A DNA stretch of 64,000 nt, taken from positions 13,445,001-13,509,000 of the forward strand of contig NC_060026.1 in NCBI RefSeq assembly GCF_021134715.1. Reading direction: 5' to 3'. This document shows positions 1,817 to 62,388 of this stretch, in pieces. The DNA is from Daphnia pulex. Its lineage: Eukaryota > Arthropoda > Branchiopoda > Diplostraca > Daphniidae. The position numbers were made by a program, and so were the translations under genes. The first letter of the stretch is position 1. The number at the start of each line of letters is the position of its first letter. The notes beneath the pieces were generated by a model. It did not search any database, was not told where the DNA came from, and saw only the letters and a program-made list of their open reading frames with translations.

Positions 1817-2863
1817 ATAATTGTTATTATTTTACTGAACTGAGCTTGCTTCCAGCACTAAAACCATATGGATATCCTTGTCATCATCATCGACATTGTC
1901 TCTCCATTTTAAAATATTTGTGCGGCCTTGTGTCTGCCGGTCAGATGCCTTATCGATCCATCCATTCCCCACTCGATCGTCCCCTCGTTAATAATAATAA
2001 AAGTTGTTAATATTGGAAACGTCTTCTTCTTTGCATATTTTTAGTTTCATTTTGAAATTACCACATAAATGTAATTATTAATGTAGATATAGGATGTAGG
2101 GTATAGGATAAAGGCGGTAGTTTATTCAAATATCTGCCATCAGTTGAATAATATAATTCGGCAATTAACGGCTCTCCGACTGTGCACCTCAGAGCAGTTA
2201 TAAGCTCACATCACACAAAGTTGGTTTATTTTCCCATTTGCTTTTTTCGCAGAAGAGGAAAGTACCACATCCCAAAATCCTAGATCGTTTGGCGATTTGA
2301 TTATTCCTCAAGTCTGAAGCCAGCAAAAGGCTGGTTGTATATGGATGGATTTCCCTCCTTGATGTATGACATTCCTATAAGGATAAAACTGTAACGGATG
2401 TACTCCTTGCTGGTATCGCGTTTCGTTTAATTAAACCGGTATCTCCGGGTCATTTCTTTGTAATAGTAGCCTTCATACAACTTTGGAATGAATTGAAATT
2501 GGCGGAGAAGTTAAAAGACTTCTGAATTTCTAGTCCAGTTCCGCGTTTGGATAAAAATTTACTTTTGAGCATCTGATCAGCTTTATTAATTCACGTAATA
2601 TGTACAGTTTACAGTACAGGGATGTTTAAAATAAATGAAATACATAATGCAATCTCGTTCATAATTTTGTTGTTTCATTCAATGAAAAATAATTTAATTC
2701 TGATTTTATTGAAAATTCACCCAGATAACATATAAAACGTTTACACTATCGGAAGTGAACGTTACTCTAAACAACAATTTTTTTAACAGCTAAACATATG
2801 TTCAATAACCAAATGATTTCCTAATAATGTTGCAAATATTAAATTGGACATTAAACAACGAGA

Positions 2864-2987
2864 TCGCGGCTTTGGCCTTTGCAATAATAGTAAAGCAAAA
2901 ACAAAAGAGAAAACCTAACCGAATTCAGGACTGGATAATGGGGTTGGCATCAGTTTTCGCAAGCCACTGGGCTGGCCCTATAAAAAG
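2864..2987 (+). promoter_or_regulatory. promoter module of copy 2 with TATA box
   Basis: TATAAAAAG at 2979-2987, 57 bases before the ATG, with the shared TGGCCTTT box at 2864-2880. The roughly 400 bases upstream (about 2600-3000) are almost identical to the region before copy 3, marking the latest duplication. Confidence 0.7.
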
Positions 2988-3035
2988 CTGTGTTGTCGAC
3001 GAACAAATTCACAGTCTAACATTGCCTCCTCTAAC

Positions 3036-3637
3036 ATGAAGACTTCTCTTGTGGTGAGTTAAATAATATTTCTTCTTAATTTTTTTGAGGTTTAAATTTG
3101 AGCTAAAAGCCTCTTCGCTGGTTATTTTTAATTCTGAACACTAAAATGACAAATTTTAGATTCTGGTTTTGAGTGCCGTTGTGGCCGCTGTTGTTGCTGA
3201 AGGCGAATATGCGCCACCTGCTTACGAGAAGAAGTACGACGGCTATTTCCAGTACGCCAATGCGCCTGGTCCACACGAATACGAATTCGGATACAACCGC
3301 GGAAATGCTCAACATAATCGCAACCATTACGAGCAGTCAAAGGATAGCCGTTTCCGCACCAAGGTCTGTTATATCCATTGAATTCCGTTTTCGCTAAGCT
3401 TTATAGAGTAATTAATATCCGTATATTTGATGAAATCAGGTCAAGTGGGCTGATACCTACGCTGGATATGGTGAGCACTACTGGGAATACAACCATGCGG
3501 ATGCTGGATACAAAGCTCCCGCCTATGAAGCCCCAGCTTACCCCGCCCCAGCTTACTCCGCACCGGCTTACTCCGCACCGGGTTATTCCGAGAACATTCC
3601 ATCCTTCGAGCCAGCCCCAGCAGCTAGTAAACAGTAA
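3036..3637 (+). CDS. small secreted tyrosine-rich cuticular-like protein, tandem copy 2
   Basis: Exons 3036-3053, 3160-3363 and 3440-3637 (phase 0 throughout) encode 139 residues. Architecture is as in copy 1: signal peptide ending VVAAVVA, the EYAPPAYEKKYDGYFQYAN start, the GYNRGNAQHNRNHYEQSKD core and GEHYWEYNHADAGYKAP. The alanine/proline tail is six residues longer than in copy 1 because of an added PAYSAPAY unit. Flanking DNA aligns with copy 3 over essentially the whole 1.8-kb repeat unit. Probable structural role in the extracellular matrix, inferred only from composition and secretion. Confidence 0.85.
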
Positions 3638-4675
3638 ATAATTATTATTATTTACTGGGCCGAGCTTGCTCCCAGCACAAAAAACCATGGATATCCTTGT
3701 CATCATCATCGACATTGTCTCTCCATTCTAAAATCATTTGTGCGGCCTTGTGTCTGCTGGTCAGACGCCTTATCGATCCATCCATTTCCCACCCGATCGT
3801 CCCCAAATCTTGTTAATTATAATAAATGTTGTTAATATTGGAAACGTCTTCTTCTTTGCAAATTTTTAATTTCATTTTGAAATTGCCGCATAAATTTAAT
3901 TATGAATACAGGAGGTAGTTTTTAGAATATCTGCCATCAGTTGAATAATAATTCGGCTATTAGCAGCAGCTGTCGTAAATCAAGGGGTCTACGACTGTGC
4001 AGCTCAGAGCAGCTATATAAGCTCACGTCACGCAAAATTGATTTATTTTCTCATTTGTTTTTTTGCCGAAGAGGAAAGTACTAAATCCCAAAATCCTAGA
4101 TCGTTGGCGATTCGATTATTCCTCAAGTCTAAAGCCAGTAAAAGGCTGGTTGTATATGGATGGATTTCGACGGGTGACATTCCTATAAGGATAAAACTGT
4201 AACGGGTGTACTCCTTGGTATCGCGCTTCCTTTAATTAAACCTGTATCTCCTGGTCATTTCTTTGTAATAGCCGGTAATAGTAGCCTTCATACAACTTTG
4301 GAATTACTTGAAATTGGAAAAGTTAACAGACTTCTGAATTTCTAGTCCAGTTCCGCGTTTGGATAAAAATTAATTTCTGAGCATCTGATCAGCTTTAATA
4401 ATTCACGTAATATTTACAGTACAGGGATGTTGAAAATAAATGAAAAAAATTATGCAATCTCGTTCATAATTTTGTCGTTTCATTCAATGAAAAATAATTT
4501 ACTAATTCTGATTTTATTTTGAATTCACCCAGATAACATATAAAATGTTTACACTATCGGAAGTGAACGTTACTTTAAACAAAATTTTTTTTTTCAACAG
4601 CTAAACATATGCTCAATAACCAAAATGATTTCCGAATAATGTTGCATATATTAAATTGGACATTAAACAACGAGA

Positions 4676-10173: not shown

Positions 10174-10536
10174 CACAGACTAAGAGGGTAAAGACTACGA
10201 TCGGGGATAGGGCTAAGAGGAATGCTTGAAGCGATGCTCGTCCTATGCCGTATGGTGGCGCGTCGAGCACACTCTACCAAAGCCATTATCCCTGAGGGTA
10301 GTACTTGTACTACCAGAAGGCATTAAAGTAAATGCGGGTGTCTGGGTGTGTAGGAGGGGGAGGGATGTGGGGGGAGTGTACGCTGTTCTGGGCCAGGCTT
10401 CCAGAACCTTTAATTCAGAATCAGAATAAATTTATAGAAATCTAAACTACTGCATCGATTTTCTTCAAACTTTTTGTGTAAACTTACAGTAATTTATCTC
10501 AGCGGATAGGTAAGTTTCGATTCATTTGGTAATACT

Positions 10537-11363
10537 AAATTTAATTTAATTTTATGCGGATTTAGTCATTAGCTTTTTGTGACTTAGGACAACCACAACA
10601 TCAATTCGATTGTCTGTTTGTTTTGTTTTTGTTGTCTGATTTATCAGTTAGTCAGTTACCGAACGTCGTCATCATGTTGACATGGTTAGCTTGCAATTTG
10701 TAATTATTAAAGTAACGCATAATTTCAACATTCCTGTTTCAATTCTTAGGCAAAAGACTATACTATGGATTACCTTATTCATCATTGTCATTGTAATTGT
10801 TTCGCATAGCTAAATGCTTCATGAAGGGTAAATCAACGCAATATCATTTATTATTTTGAGTTTTCTTACGTATTTTGTTTGCCTAACTAATTTTGTTGTG
10901 ACGCCCAGGAAAATGACCATAAAATGGGTTTGCTTGATTTTCATGGTAGTGTATTAAACCATTTCTGTGAGTCACTCATTGATTTTGTTGTGACGCCCAG
11001 GAAAATGACCATAAAATGGGTTTCTTGATTTTCATAGTGCACTAAACCATTTCTGTGAGTCACTCACTGATATAAATACCATATGATGAGTAGTCATCAT
11101 GTATGGTAAGCACTGAAATAATTTACCATAATTGTAATGCCTCACGATAAATTTTATTTTGACTGTTAGGCTAATGATTAGAAGTTAGACATGAATATGT
11201 ATCGTCCTCACCTAAATTTGGATGTGCACGTGTCTGTTTCAGAAAGAAAGTTAAGGACAGGAGAAGATGAGCATTGGTGATACTAAATTTTATTTTATTT
11301 TATGCGGATTTAGTCATTAGCTTTTTGTGACTTAGGACAACCACAAAATCCATTAGGTTGTCT
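10537..11363 (+). repeat. direct repeat of about 80 bp enclosing 670 bp, unique to X copy 1
   Basis: The block with TTTATGCGGATTTAGTCATTAG occurs at about 10540-10620 and again at about 11285-11365, 748 bases apart. X copy 2 has only one such block and lacks everything between. Either the piece was inserted/duplicated here or deleted there by recombination between the repeats. Confidence 0.7.
10889..11069 (+). repeat. two-unit tandem repeat, about 90 bp
   Basis: Two near-identical units, each starting TTTTGTTGTGACGCCCAGG and ending CTGTGAGTCACTCA, lie head to tail at about 10889-10980 and 10981-11069. Confidence 0.8.
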
Positions 11364-11430
11364 GTTGACAGTCTGTTGATGTCTTGTTCAGTAAAAATAA
11401 ATTTCGTCAACAGTTTTGTTATTGTTACAG

Positions 11431-12728
11431 GATATTGTTTCTCTTTTAGAGAAGTTCAGTGGAACAAAGGTATTTTGGTGTGTGCTATTCCATTTAAGAA
11501 ATGTACGTAAATTCATCAATTATGCTAGGCAATATTTTGGGATGAACAACTCACTGGCCCCATTGGTTTGGTGGCAGAATACAGTTTTCTTAAGGAACTA
11601 GATGTTGTAAAAATGTTTCAGTTAAAACCTGGGCGCTTGCCTTCCATATCTGTTAAAAATATGCTGTTCATCACAAGACCTGAAGTTGAGCTGATGGATT
11701 GTATTGCCGATAACTTGCACAGGTATGAATAATCTACATATTTTAACTTTAAATAGTCAACAATAAGTTAATTTACATTTCAGCGAAGAAAGCCAAGGAC
11801 ATTCTGCTAGTAAGGAATATCAGTTAATTTTTGTCTCCCGACGAAGTGCAGTATGTGAACAGCGGCTCAAGGTTGGTTAAAGTTACTTAAATCAGCGAAG
11901 AAGAAATTGTTGACAAAATTATTACTTCATTTAGGACAAAGGAGTGTATGGAACTCTTACTTCTATTGATGAACTGCCTGCTGATTTTTTCCCACTAGAT
12001 AGTGATGTCATTTCAATGGAACTCGATAATGTTTTCAAGGTATTTATTTATGAGCCAAACTTTGAAAGGGATTGCTTGTCATCAATTTCTTCAAATTTAT
12101 TCTCAGGATTTATATGTTGACAATGAAATCAGCTCCTTACACCAAATTGCTCATGGGTTAATGTCCCTCCAAAGTTTATATGGCATTTTCCCCAACGTTG
12201 TGGGTAAGGGGCGCCATGCCCGTAACGTATTCGAATTGATGACTCGAATGCGACGTGATATTGGGGTAGACTGTGATCCCCCCATGTCTCCGTTGTTCGA
12301 CACTCTCATGATCATTGATAGGACTGTAGATTTGATAACTCCTGTTGTCACTCAGTTGACCTATGAGGGTCTTATCGACGAATTCCATGGAATAAAACAT
12401 AGTAAGAAAGTATTGTTAGCTTCTGAGTAAAACAATTATTTTACTTGCATTTTGTGGTTTCATTGTTATTTAGATACAGTCAAGCTTCCAGGAGAAAATT
12501 TTCAAGCCTCATCAAATGCGGGCCAGTCACCTCGCTCTGATGGTAGCTCTGTTAAATCTGTTGTTCTAAACTCGGCCGAAGAGCTTTACGCTGATTTGAG
12601 GTGAAATTTTTAATCAGACAAATTTTGCTTCCGACAGTTTTAAAGTTATTTATTTTCGCAGGGACAAGAACTTTTCAGCCGTGGGTACTGCACTCAGTCG
12701 CAAAGCTAAAGCTATTTCAGCTCAGTAG
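11431..12728 (+). pseudogene. Vps33A: Vps33A internal fragment carried by X copy 1
   Basis: Exons 11431-11469, 11529-11722, 11784-11871, 11935-12039, 12107-12401, 12474-12600 and 12662-12728 splice in phase to about 306 residues of a Sec1/Munc18-family protein. Vps33A is the core subunit of the HOPS/CORVET tethering complexes that binds SNAREs at the lysosome. Diagnostic stretches are [51 protein letters not shown] and [16 protein letters not shown]. Compared with human Vps33A (about 596 residues) it spans roughly residues 24-310. The first exon and the whole carboxy half are missing, and the frame ends at TAG (12726-12728) exactly where foreign sequence begins. Introns are retained, so this is a DNA-level capture, not a retrocopy. 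Not a functional Vps33A; the full gene must be elsewhere. Confidence 0.85.
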
Positions 12729-12966
12729 CCTGGATAACGCCATTGTTGCATTTGGAGGTGTTAAGGTTTCTGCATTCGCACGCGATAGTGGAGAAATATT
12801 CCTAGACTCCTTCGATGATTCGGTAATCATGGTTAGTTTAAACTCAATAATATTTCTCCAGCAGTTTTTTTCATCGGGATTTTTTTTTCTTGTGTATTCT
12901 CTTTAGATCAACCCGGATATACCTGATGAAAGGGAGCTGAGGGAGTGGCTTAAAGACAATCAGTAA
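12727..12966 (+). pseudogene. carboxy-terminal exons of an unidentified gene fused behind Vps33A
   Basis: Right after the Vps33A stretch a different frame opens: [20 protein letters not shown]...FDDSVIM. It ends at a donor after 12831 and resumes after an acceptor near 12907 as [19 protein letters not shown] and stop at 12964-12966. Two spliced pieces with normal borders suggest the true last exons of some host gene. I do not recognise it. The same fusion is in X copy 2, so the join predates the spread of X. Confidence 0.55.
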
Positions 12967-12991
12967 ACAAATCCTTTTTTACTGATTGTCT
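12954..12991 (+). terminator. perfect 14-bp hairpin over the tail stop codon
   Basis: AGACAATCAGTAAA is followed, after a 10-base loop, by its exact reverse complement. It overlaps the last codons and TAA of the fused tail. Whether it acts on RNA 3' ends is unknown; the type label is only the nearest available. Confidence 0.35.
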
Positions 12992-13968
12992 GAAGATCTT
13001 AATTACTTGACGTCCTTAAACATCGACTGCAGCTAATTGCCTCCATCTTTTTTCTCGAATTGTTGCCTCCATCTGTTTCCCTGAATTGTTGCCTTGCCTC
13101 AAACTTTTTTCCTAAAATATGGCTTCGATCTTGTAACCTGAACTGTTGCCTTTTTACCTCAGCCCTTGTGATGGAGAAATTGGGCCACTGTCTGAGTTTA
13201 ACTCAAGAATTTCGTAAAATGATAAATGATAAAATAATAATAAATTTATTTCGTAAATGATAAAGAAAAAAAATCCAGGAAATTACAATAAACAAAATCT
13301 TACGAAATTCCTACATTTTAATTGTTTTGAAAATATAAGCAAAAGCTTTTAACTGATATCTTGCACGTTAATACCCGAGGGCGAACCTGGAAGGGTCTTG
13401 TTTTTCCTTTTTCCCTACTGATATGAGTCTTCACACACCGTAAATTTGTAAGTGAACCATTAACATTTCAATAGTGAATTTTTTTGTAAATATAGCTTAG
13501 ATATCCCCCATGTTGTGTGAATTTTTACAAATTTCTGTGTGATCTCTAGACACAATCTATAAATTCCTTTATTAAACCCCCTTTTTGCCCATTTTCAGGG
13601 CCAGGAAACAGCGTTTCACGATTTTCAGGCCCATTTCAGAAAATCTTGAAACGCTGTTTCCTGGGCTTGAAAATGGGCAAAAGGGGGTTTAATAAATGAA
13701 TTTTTAGATTGTGTCTAGAGATCACATATAATTTTTAAAAAATTCACACAACATGGTGGATATCTAAGCTATATTTACACAAAAATTCACTATTGAAATA
13801 TTAATGGTTCACTTACAAATTTACGGTGTGTGAAGACTCATATCAGTAGGGAAAAAGGAAAAATAATGGCTTTGGTAGAGTGTGCTTGACGCGCCACCAT
13901 ACGGCATAGGACGCGCATCGCTTCAAGGGGTTTATAGCCGTTCGTAGTCTTTACCCTCTTAGTCTGTG

Positions 13969-58555: not shown

Positions 58556-61500
58556 TTATAATTCATACACTCGAATGTAATCAATTTGCATAGTGTTGTC
58601 TTCCGTGTCAGCATTCCATGTGGGTAGCCATTTGTCGCGGCTTTCCCAGAAAGTTTTCATTTGAGTTGGGTCATTTGCGTTCCACGGTTTCTCATAACCC
58701 GCATTTTGGCAACCGTCGGGAAAGAAGTTGCCGCCAACAACCACATTGAGCACGAAATGGAACTACGGAAATAAAGTCAAGCGACGGTTAAAATAACCCC
58801 GAGAAAATAATCTTTTTAAAAATATAGTACAGGTTGATCGAAAGGTGCCATTTTAGTTCCTGAACTCCACAGATTCTGTTCGCTGAATCCGCCCAGCTCT
58901 GAGAAACCACCGGGTGGAGGATATACTTCGCCAATCATTTCGTCGTCAATGAAGAATTGAAAACCATTTGGGAGCCACTCGACACGAAAGATGTGAAAAT
59001 CTGAGGAGAAATCAGGATCCTGTATGATTCTTTTATTAGAAAATGTGATTATTCTTTAATATTTCATTTAGAGCAGCGTAAGTAGTTGTTAAATTACTTT
59101 TCCCAGTGTGTTAGAGGATATCGGTTCTGGCTAGGATCAGGACCCCAATGCAAAGTGCATCCAGCCAATTGTCGCCCTATCGGATAGCCGTTGCAAGAGA
59201 AATCAGCGTTTCCTTTAATTTCTACAATGTCAATTTCGCCCGAGCGCGGCCATTCGCCGTAAACCGAGTCGGTAGGCAGCATCCAAATTGCTTAATTGAT
59301 TTAAATTCTGGTATTAATCCTACAATTATTTCAAAAAATGATTGTAGTATTTTTACCTGGCCAAATCCAGTCACCTTTTGGCATTTTGGCTCTGATTTCA
59401 ATAGTGCCATTGGTAAAACTAAACGAATCACTTGTCACCATCCTTGCAGACTGAATGGGATTGATAATTTCTGCAGAAGCCACCCTTAATTATTTAACAA
59501 AACAAATTATGATTCAAAATAAAGGACAATAAAAAAAAATAATCAGGTAACAAGACCCTTCCAGGTTCGCCCTCGGGTATTAACGGGCAAGATATCAGTT
59601 AAAAGCTTTTGCTTATATTTTCAAAACAATTAAAATGTAGGAATTTCGTAAGATTTTGTTTATTGTAATTTCCTGGATTTTTTTTCTGTATCATTTACGA
59701 AATAAAATAATAAACAATGTAAATTCTTGAGTTAAACTCAGACAGTGGCCCAATTTCTCCATCACAAGGGCTGAGGTAAAAAGGCAACAGTTCAGGGTAC
59801 AACATCGAGGCAACAGTTCAGGTTACAAGATCGAAGCCATATTTTAGGAAAAAAGTTTGAGGCAAGGCAACAATTCAGGGAAACAGATGGAGGCAACAAT
59901 TCGAGAAAAAAGATGAGGCAATTAGCTGCAGTTGATGTTTAAGGACGTCAAGTAATTAAGATCTTCAGACAATCAGTAAAAAAGGATTTGTTTACTGATT
60001 GTCTTTAAGCCACTCCCTCAGCTCCCTTTCATCAGGTATATCCGGGTTGATCTAAAGAGAATACACAAGAAAAAAAAATCCCGATGAAAAAAACTGCTGG
60101 AGAAATATTATTGAGTTTAAACTAACCATGATTACCGAATCATCGAAGGAGTCTAGGAATATTTCTCCACTATCACGTGCGAATGCAGAAACCTTAACAC
60201 CTCCAAATGCAACAATGGCGTTATCCAGGCTACTGAGCTGAAATAGCTTTAGCTTTGCGACTGAGTGCAGTACCCACGGCTGAATAGTTCTTGTCCCTGC
60301 GAAAATAAATAACTTTAAAACTGTCGGAAGCAAAATTTGTCTGATTCAAAATTTCACCTCAAATCAGCGTAAAGCTCTTCGGCCGAGTTTAGAACAACAG
60401 ATTTAACAGAGCTACCATCAGAGCGAGGTGACTGGCCCGCATGTGATGAGGCTAGAAAATTTTCTCCTGGAAGCTTGACTGTATCTAAATAACAATGAAA
60501 CCACAAAATGCAAGTAAAATAATTGTTTTACTCAGAAGCTAACAATACTTTCTTACTATGTTTTATTCCATAGAATTCGTCGATAAGACCCTCATAGGTC
60601 AACTGAGTGACAACAGGAGTTATCAAATCTACAGTCCTATCAATGATCATGAGAGTGTCGAACAACGGAGACATGGGGGATCACAGTCTACCCCAATATC
60701 ACGTCGCATTCGAGTCATCAATTCGAATACGTTACGGGCATGGCGCCCCTTACCCACAACGTTGGGGAAAATGCCTTATAAACTTTGGAGGGACATTAAC
60801 CCATGAGCAATTTGGTGTAAGGAGCTGATTTCATTGTCAACATATAAATCCTGAGAATAAATTTGAAGAAATTGATGACAAGCAATCCCTTTCAAAGTTT
60901 GGCTCATAAATAAATACCTTGAAAACATTATCGAGTTCCATTGAAATGACATCACTATCTAGTGGGAAAAAATCAACAGGCAGTTCATCAATAGAAGTAA
61001 GAGTTCCATACACTCCTTTGTCCTAAATGAAGTAATAATTTTGTCAACAATTTCTTCTTCGCTGATTTAAGTAACTTTAACCAACCTTGAGCCGCTGTTC
61101 ACATACTGCACTTCGTCGGGAGACAAAAATTAACTGATATTCCTTACTAGCAGAATGTCCTTGGCTTTCTTCGCTGAAATGTAAATTAACTTACTGTTGA
61201 CTATTTAAAGTTAAAATATGTAGATTATTCATACCTGTGCAAGTTATCGGCAATACAATCCATCAGCTCAACTTCAGGTCTTGTGATGAACAGTATATTT
61301 TTAACAGATATGGAAGGCAAGCGCCCAGGTTTTAACTGAAACATTTTTACAACATCTAGTTCCTTAAGAAAACTGTATTCTGCCACCAAACCAATGGGGC
61401 CAGTGAGTTGTTCATCCCAAAATATTGCCTAGCATAATTGATGAATTTACGAACATTTCTTAAATGGAATAGCACACACCAAAATACCTTTGTTCCACTG

Positions 61501-62315
61501 AACTTCTCTAAAAGAGAAACAATATCCTGTAACAATAACAAAACTGTTGACGAAATTTATTTTTACTGAACAAGACATCAACAGACTGTCAACAGACAAC
61601 CTAATGGATTTTGTGGTTGTCCTAAGTCACAAAAAGCTAATGACTAAATCCGCATAAAATGAAATAAAATTTAGTATTACCAAATGAATCGAAACTTACC
61701 TATCCGCTGAGATAAATTACTGTAAGTTTACACAAAAAGTTTGAAGAAAATCGATGCAGTAGTTTAGATTTCTATAAATTTATTCTGATTCTGAATTAAA
61801 GGTTCTGGAAGCCTGGCCCAGAACAGCGTACACTCCCCCCACATCCCTCCCCCTCCTACACACCCAGACACCCGCATTTACTTTAATGCCTTCTGGTAGT
61901 ACAAGTACTACCCTCAGGGATAATAATTACACATAGCAACCGCCATCGATGTCCACATTGCAGCCTTCCTTATACAAATCAAGTGTGCCATTGTACAGAA
62001 AAGCCTCGCCAAAACGATCCGCTGTCAATGTTGGCTTGATGTATAGGATCCCATCTCGAACGTAACTTTAAATTGAAATGAGTTATTTCCATTTTGAAAT
62101 TCAATTTGAAAATAATACCTGTTTTCGGGTAGATTGTCGTAATATTGGAATTCACTGTTGCCCCCTCGCCATGCTGTAATTAGGTGCTTCCATTTGTTTG
62201 TGTCAAGAAATTCAAAATCATCTTGCCAGAGGATTGGTCCGCGCGCTTGGTTGTCAATGCTAGATCCGTGACAAACTGCCAGAGCAAAAAGGGCGATAAT
62301 AGAGAGCTTCATCAT
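58556..62315 (-). CDS. GH16 endo-beta-1,3-glucanase, gene C (intron 2 holds element X)
   Basis: Exons 62119-62315, 61931-62065, 59357-59484, 59098-59290, 58831-59029 and 58556-58762, 352 residues. All borders and phases equal genes A and B, and GEIDIVE is intact. The signal peptide is [17 protein letters not shown]. Intron 2 (59485-61930) is 2446 bp, against about 62 and 65 bp in the paralogues, because X copy 2 sits in it. Donor and acceptor lie outside X, so normal splicing remains possible. One change stands out: GGFSELGGF where A and B have GGFWELGGF near the sugar-binding cleft. Expression may be affected by the intron insert, which carries Vps33A splice sites in the same orientation. 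Confidence 0.9.
59992..60232 (-). pseudogene. fused tail exons of the unidentified gene, X copy 2
   Basis: Same frame as in copy 1 ([20 protein letters not shown]...[19 protein letters not shown]) with both splice borders and the TAA (59992-59994) kept. Confidence 0.55.
60230..61526 (-). pseudogene. Vps33A: Vps33A internal fragment, X copy 2
   Basis: The same seven Vps33A exons as in copy 1, in the same order and with the same missing ends, run from 61526 ([11 protein letters not shown]) down to the TAG at 60232-60230. Splice sites are conserved. Because the host GH16 gene is on the same strand, these exons could be spliced into its transcript. Confidence 0.85.
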
Positions 62316-62388
62316 GGCTTTGGCAGTGAACGGTAAGGAGAATATTTATAATTCTGACTGTTACCGGTTAAAGAATGAACGTAACATA

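Follow-up and report, generated by a model that had tools for sequence, protein, structure and literature searches.

A Daphnia pulex rolling-circle transposon family with CTTG ends carries Vps33A exons and relics of their probable capture by read-through

The way in which Helitrons capture host genes is debated between end-bypass (read-through) and filler-DNA models (PMC6544945). For Helraiser, flanking sequence was reportedly captured in about 11.7% of events when the 3' end was intact and in at least 36% when the hairpin was missing, and CTTG ends are known in its truncated insertions as well as in maize Helitrons (PMC4778049). A CTTG 3' end is also known in the fungal family HELPO2, and this Pleurotus study reports no clear intermediate terminators (PMC4289320). 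In Daphnia pulex, 27 BLASTN copies of HeliDaphNA2.1 were reported, and mutation-accumulation lines were used to assay HeliDaphNA1.1 and NA2.1 by transposon display (PMC2884549). Here we describe element X, a carrier of exons of the host gene Vps33A, in a stretch of 64,000 nucleotides of the D. pulex genome (the window; contig NC_060026.1, C10:13445001-13509000), where X position 1 is window position 10289. X is in all likelihood a non-autonomous member of the Helitron superfamily of rolling-circle transposons; it is probably mobilised by a RepHel (Rep plus helicase) of the kind present on contig C8, and its Vps33A piece was probably acquired by read-through. That a downstream element may supply the terminator in such a capture has been proposed earlier. 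Among the literature matches listed (titles and abstract openings, with limited coverage of subscription papers) there was neither a worked case of a downstream-element terminator nor a report of Vps33A capture by Daphnia Helitrons. The features that bear on the capture are the following (window positions):

10289-13400, forward strand: element X, full copy, 3112 bp, TC...CTTG; five genome-wide copies 0-4 substitutions apart
11383-11386, forward strand: internal CTTG, the point where the 3' terminator of the small founding element is lost, located by aligning three elements of the 396-bp class and the parent gene on C6
11389-12727, forward strand: captured Vps33A fragment, exons and introns, 97.7% identical to the C6 gene (L066; 30 substitutions in 1339 sites)
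12728-12966, forward strand: probable piece of the element's own RPA-like gene, with related sequence in the C8 and C3 relatives
59551-61920, reverse strand: shorter form of the same family (X2 type), 2370 bp, with the same ends as X

The Vps33A label is carried by 262 residues of the captured piece, which match solved Vps33A with E 4e-76. The gene at C6:3592361-3593700, which itself has no element ends, agrees with X 1101-2439 at 97.7% identity over exons and introns alike, and judged by this identity the Vps33A piece of X, with a latest possible start at 11389, derives from the C6 gene. Upstream of the piece, a part of the element (A) matches the 396-bp class up to the internal CTTG, and the last 47-50 bp of that class, with the inverted repeat and the terminal CTTG, are missing. 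The junction between A and Vps33A is identical in eight aligned carriers and in three partial copies on C6. On C8, Vps33A is contiguous up to parent position 3725, exactly where the 5' end of a RepHel element (B) starts; the C6 parent reads GAGAAATTA^TTCACGC at this position. Since the right flank of B on C8 is not Vps33A, the composite, which today measures about 22 kb including later insertions, probably moved as one unit. The extra Vps33A stretch on C8 is 3.3% diverged from the parent and the remainder 1.8-3.3%, and 23 differences from the C6 gene are common to 13 aligned carriers; the equal divergence and the common differences fit with one capture.

From these relics we propose the following route. 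An element A of about the 396-bp class would have resided in the first coding intron of Vps33A, lacking its 3' terminator from the internal CTTG or close to it, while an autonomous-type element B, oriented like A, would have occupied a TTA^T site in an exon of Vps33A further downstream. Replication from the 5' end of A would have met no terminator, passed through Vps33A and halted at the 3' end of B, yielding the composite now found on C8. Going by the anatomy and by Helraiser, the enzyme would nick at TTA/TC (slashes mark junctions) at the 5' end and one strand would be peeled or copied up to CTTG/T, after which the ends would be joined by a presumed enzymology into a target that is observed as TTA^T without duplication. 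An internal deletion fusing Vps33A to the RPA-like gene of B may then have generated the 2.37-kb X2, and recombination of X2 with a 1.75-kb relative may have given the 3.11-kb X, followed by very recent amplification. We are evenly balanced on the larger proposition that this is a nearly complete natural record of read-through capture in which the second element's own terminator was used: A, lacking its 3' terminator and ended at a cryptic CTTG, would be a forced read-through donor, about 1.8 kb of Vps33A and a whole RepHel element would have been carried to C8 in one jump, and the composite would later have been trimmed into a successful small family. CTTG ends and this kind of Helitron were already known, and the interest lies in the readable capture history: a single genome holds the parent gene, the terminator-less upstream element, the downstream terminator, the long composite and the trimmed progeny. 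In addition, the presence of two identical 3112-bp copies on different contigs makes recent activity testable in living Daphnia.

The identity of X as a mobile unit follows from its copies. In genome pattern searches (up to three mismatches; reversed-pattern controls gave 0 matches), the first 25 nt of X have 32 matches, the first 35 nt have 31 and the last 33 nt have 24. Both ends are present in 23 copies spread over 10 contigs, with sizes of 3112 bp (five), 2367-2383 bp (seven), 1669-1772 bp (seven), 395-397 bp (three) and 72 bp (one). The nine further 5' ends lie in a C8 cluster at 4.18-4.20 Mb (four, the 24th 3' end being the partner of one of them), in a C6 cluster (three), at C2:8879492 and at C8:2999526. 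X opens with TCCCTGAGGG and closes with GGGTCTTG, and all 23 copies start with TC and finish with CTTG. Over 253 pairs, the first 20 nt have a mean identity of 99.6% and the last 20 nt one of 97.8%; outside the ends it collapses, to 28.7% at -23 to -4 and 29.8% at +2 to +21, so the shared block stops at the ends, constant target bases aside. The five 3112-bp copies differ by 0-4 substitutions in 3112 and must therefore be very young; the X family is recently active. The structures at the ends and at the insertion site of the window copy are:

10286-10288, forward strand: TTA, left part of the target; the right part is the T at 13401
10290-10303, forward strand: 5' asymmetric terminal inverted repeat candidate, CCCTGAGGGTAGTA, pairing with 13369-13381; weak, since shuffled or random pieces reach its score in about 2-4% of cases
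10297-10314, forward strand: 5' hairpin GGTAGTAC-TT-GTACTACC with perfect 8-bp arms, overlapping the 5' inverted-repeat candidate
13369-13381, forward strand: 3' asymmetric terminal inverted repeat candidate, 19 nt from the 3' end
13385-13396, forward strand: small 3' stem ACCTGGAAGGGT, adjoining CTTG, about -2 kcal/mol only
13397-13400, forward strand: 3' terminus CTTG, with T as the next base in 23 of 23 copies
13855-13875, reverse strand: empty site of copy 1 in the foldback's mirror arm, from the joined-flank alignment

In every one of the 23 copies the base before the element is A and the base after it T; 22 copies have the target TTA^T and the remaining one has TAA^T, and TTAT is found at 0.65% of the positions in the window. 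The copy at 10289 (copy 1) sits in an inverted repeat, whose arms on its right, 13401-13594 and 13670-13863, are 93% complementary. Its joined flanks agree with the mirror arm in 308 of 341 columns (90%) and the joint is free of gaps and mismatches, which indicates that the pre-insertion sequence of copy 1 survives. The remaining 22 copies and the C8 composite were searched with one joined query (E 1e-4; 40 of 404 candidates scored). This yielded one empty site for copy C4c, three for C3b and, for C3c, a repeat family with 52 matches, some of them partial, of which three were aligned; all seven aligned sites are continuous across the joint and show neither a gap nor a duplication. An exact empty site within the genome is available for four of the 23 copies (the window copy, C4c, C3b and C3c), and for the other 19 none was found at this threshold, which, with 40 of 404 candidates scored, is not evidence of absence. 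The original prediction, made from the letters of the window, had described a Helitron-like carrier of Vps33A exons, present in two copies with exact TC and CTTG ends between A and T without duplication, and had read the empty site of copy 1 in the mirror arm. All of this, including the Vps33A label, agrees with our results, and within this genome further sequences with the same ends exist and the shared block keeps to the proposed ends.

Several individual copies deserve mention. The foldback that copy 1 entered (window 13401-13863) has arms of at least 194 nt. The X2 copy at 59551-61920 lies in what looks by eye like an intron of a GH16 beta-1,3-glucanase-like gene (window 58800-62320), which it breaks up directly past one exon, also assigned by eye; the GH16 label comes from one search (best E 1.7e-22), and two short pieces of the gene gave 0 matches in Pfam. 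The 72-bp copy (C7:4745191-4745262, L061) consists of little beyond both ends, stands at TTA^T and is possibly a minimal mobile unit. At C4:127885-132784, two members of different subfamilies follow each other in the same orientation with 32 bp between them, and tandem arrangement has been called characteristic of Helitrons (PMC2884549). Three 5' ends with part of Vps33A at C6:6463230-6473118 have near-identical left flanks and a common right break and are probably a local duplication of a single truncated copy.

The original prediction's remark that no helicase is present holds for the window copy of X, whereas a relative with the same ends does have one. The element at C8:4202162-4222533 matches the first 35 nt of X in 35 of 35 and the last 33 nt in 33 of 33 positions, and contains open reading frames (ORFs) with DUF6570 and Helitron_like_N (66 bits) and a 545-aa helicase ORF with PIF1 (89 bits); the DUF6570 and Helitron_like_N ORFs were read on the first repeat unit, whose Rep ORF is 100% identical. 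HLH and YLLKY motifs are visible by eye. AP endonuclease was not among the 11 families matched by the 545-aa helicase ORF, and the C8 gene may be incomplete. A second, degenerate relative at C3:5499001-5517600 is 95-96% identical in its Rep and helicase parts and has an X-like 5' region opening TTA/TCCCTGAGGGT. The C8 element probably represents the type of partner that mobilises X, and it answers the expectation of an autonomous Rep/helicase element sharing the 3' end of X, with its ORFs in separate pieces. Because of this same-ended RepHel relative, and because CTTG ends are known elsewhere, the suggestion that the departure from CTRR marks a new rolling-circle type is weakened; the departure itself stands, with CTTG in 23 of 23 copies.

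X 2440-3112 is the counterpart of the 3' part of a RepHel-type element, and what follows from position 12728 most likely belongs to the element itself, as RPA-like and 3' sequence, and not to a host gene. A second captured host gene at 12728-12966 was considered and dropped: the RPA-like gene of the autonomous element is preferred, since sequence related to this piece follows the helicase on both C8 and C3. Near the 3' end of the C8 element, an RPA-like OB-fold piece matches REPA_OB_2 with E 3e-4 and 21 bits, against a Pfam cut-off of 27, and three of four pieces from this region, the window's 53-aa piece among them, matched no Pfam family. Among 16 matches for the region, the top ones are designed repeat proteins (Cake, Scone), whose rank comes from summing over repeats, none of the stretches passing individually. 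Chains that bear the name RPA match with E 0.03-0.19, and 4gnx_C, which is named uncharacterized and which we take to be RPA, with E 2e-4. RPA-like similarity was also seen in a stretch of C7 (L068). A further relative at C10:9482898 is 57% identical. Another RepHel family, distinct and multi-copy, has 42% identity in Rep and is present at C9:4982101-4992000 and C10:15166221-15176120 (L078 and L079); L078 has open frames of 872 and 846 aa and shares with X two chance-like matches of 18-20 bp. Around the composite, C8:4180117-4188213 and 4199117-4207214 are tandem units, 99.99% identical at a spacing of 19 kb, with the composite element inside and MATH/BTB-like genes (labelled by eye) beside them; a recent duplication or an effect of the assembly may account for them.

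The derivation of X2 and X can be followed in their junctions. The Vps33A-RPA deletion junction of X2 is identical in the four copies inspected, and the C8 3' segment differs from the seven X2 copies by 7-17 substitutions in 674-678 sites plus 9-14 gap columns. The additional sequence of X is:

10619-11273, forward strand: 655-bp stretch common to X and the 1.75-kb non-autonomous subfamily (C4b, C12b, C9a, C9b), not in X2

Between X and the 1.75-kb subfamily this stretch shows 23-24 substitutions in 631 sites and 29 gap columns, and it is bridged by a 93-bp repeat (X 238-330 and X 986-1078, 92% identical).

A number of observations weigh against the proposed history. At the A junction, CTTG/TTCAG stands against TTA/TACAG in the gene with one mismatch, and a junction CTTGTT/CAG is equally possible. 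The C6 gene now holds neither A nor B, so the donor allele has to be inferred, and for the C8 composite no empty site was found (E 1e-4; 40 of 404 candidates scored). Over X 1-294 the C8 element reaches only about 80% identity with X; it carries about 9.5 kb of other DNA ahead of its RPA-like part (about 4211119 to 4220628), and has its Rep (640 aa) and helicase (545 aa) ORFs open but in separate pieces, divided by introns or breaks. The C3 relative carries stops, and an undamaged RepHel element with X-type ends was not found in this genome. The RPA label for 12728-12966 and its relatives is modest, given the matches above, and the terminal inverted-repeat match of X is statistically poor, with equal scores in 453 of 20000 shuffles and 765 of 20000 internal pairs and, in a wider search, in 849 of 2000 shuffles. 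The most direct conflict concerns the order of events: 16 derived substitutions are common to C8 and the X2 copy C10c and absent from four other X2 copies, at the eight of these sites that the parent gene can polarise it sides with the other copies, and a tree joins C8 and C10c at 100/99, although the program warned that the bootstrap had not settled. This grouping contradicts a simple tree of composite first and one deletion unless copies recombined; with the deletion in C10c and not in C8, it calls for recombination between copies, an identical deletion that arose twice, or a different order of events. Positions 1187-1812 of C10c, which include the deletion junction at 1688, contain no substitution shared with C8, which is consistent with conversion but no proof of it.

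The same C8-C10c grouping, with the deletion in C10c only, would be expected if B had inserted later into a complete Vps33A-carrying element whose right side was then lost, and B enters TTA^T like any copy. We nevertheless regard such a nested insertion as quite improbable, because it needs an extra deletion that ends exactly at the 3' terminus of B, whose right flank is not Vps33A, and leaves unexplained why X2 and B have the same RPA-like segment and 3' end. Slightly less improbable, although still unlikely, is an uptake of Vps33A as filler DNA during break repair inside an element; the captured piece does now lie within the element and the Vps33A-RPA join of X2 is an internal deletion-type junction, but filler DNA predicts neither a terminator-less element upstream nor a downstream boundary that coincides precisely with another element's 5' end at the parent TTA^T. 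Duplicative template switch, the alternative put forward in the original prediction, or segmental duplication could have been entertained while just two copies were visible in the window. With 23 both-ended copies dispersed over 10 contigs, unrelated flanks, a near-constant target and four exact empty sites, this explanation is ruled out for practical purposes.

It is doubtful, though less so than the preceding alternatives, whether X is a canonical Helitron1 with a slightly altered 3' end and an incidental 5' hairpin and inverted repeats. The 5' TC and the A^T insertion (each in 23 of 23 copies) and the absence of duplication are those of Helitron1, CTTG is present in other Helitrons, and the inverted repeats are weak. 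In contrast, X ends in CTTG instead of CTRR, has no palindrome of 16-20 nt about 11 nt from its 3' end, where only the short stem of about -2 kcal/mol adjoins the end, and forms a 5' hairpin with perfect 8-bp arms, one of 23 such hairpins (loop 0-8) across the whole 64 kb and the one within the first 30 nt of X. This hairpin covers the 5' repeat candidate as in Helitron2, and the asymmetric terminal inverted repeats are near Helitron2 geometry but weak against shuffles; the stem downstream of the 3' candidate is weak. Of the Helentron features, the AP endonuclease at the RepHel C-terminus is not seen on the 545-aa ORF of the possibly incomplete C8 gene, and insertion is at A^T in 23 of 23 copies instead of TT. 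Rep (HUH) and helicase in the same-ended C8 relative, although in separate ORF pieces, and the absence of target-site duplication at the four copies with an empty site place X in the Helitron superfamily. It is filed there under neither Helitron1 nor Helitron2, because the 5' hairpin is Helitron2-like while the 5' TC and the A^T insertion are Helitron1-like.

Among described systems, Helitron2 resembles X in its hairpin over the 5' inverted repeat (in X a candidate, 1 bp from the 5' end), and resembles the family in its 5' T, the lack of target duplication and the lack of an endonuclease, none being seen in the C8 helicase ORF; one Helitron2 family uses TTTT^T/C in place of TTA^T, X starts with TC, and the Helitron2 3' repeat lies about 20-30 nt from the end, compared with a weak one at 19 nt and a tiny 3' stem in X (PMC3627910). 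FoHeli1 and FoHeli2 of Fusarium share the TC start (T[c/a] in FoHeli2) and an extended target, and have asymmetric inverted repeats and hairpins at both ends, comparable with the repeat candidates, the 5' hairpin and the small 3' stem of X, but end in ATTTT and use a target starting with TNAT (PMC5148889). HeliDaphNA1.1 and NA2.1 are likewise non-autonomous D. pulex Helitrons, compared here by description (PMC2884549). HELPO2 of Pleurotus ostreatus, also compared by description, has the CTTG 3' end and A^T insertion in a genome whose Helitrons carry captured genes, but is fungal and without clear intermediate terminators reported for the captures (PMC4289320). Helraiser, as a canonical Helitron, has the 5' TC and A^T insertion of X; it ends in CTAG with a 19-bp palindrome 11 nt inside, whereas X has CTTG, a weak adjoining stem and a 5' hairpin, and it shows read-through capture in the absence of the 3' hairpin and truncated insertions at internal CTTG/T (PMC4778049). 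By analogy, the behaviour of Helraiser in cells parallels the capture proposed for X.

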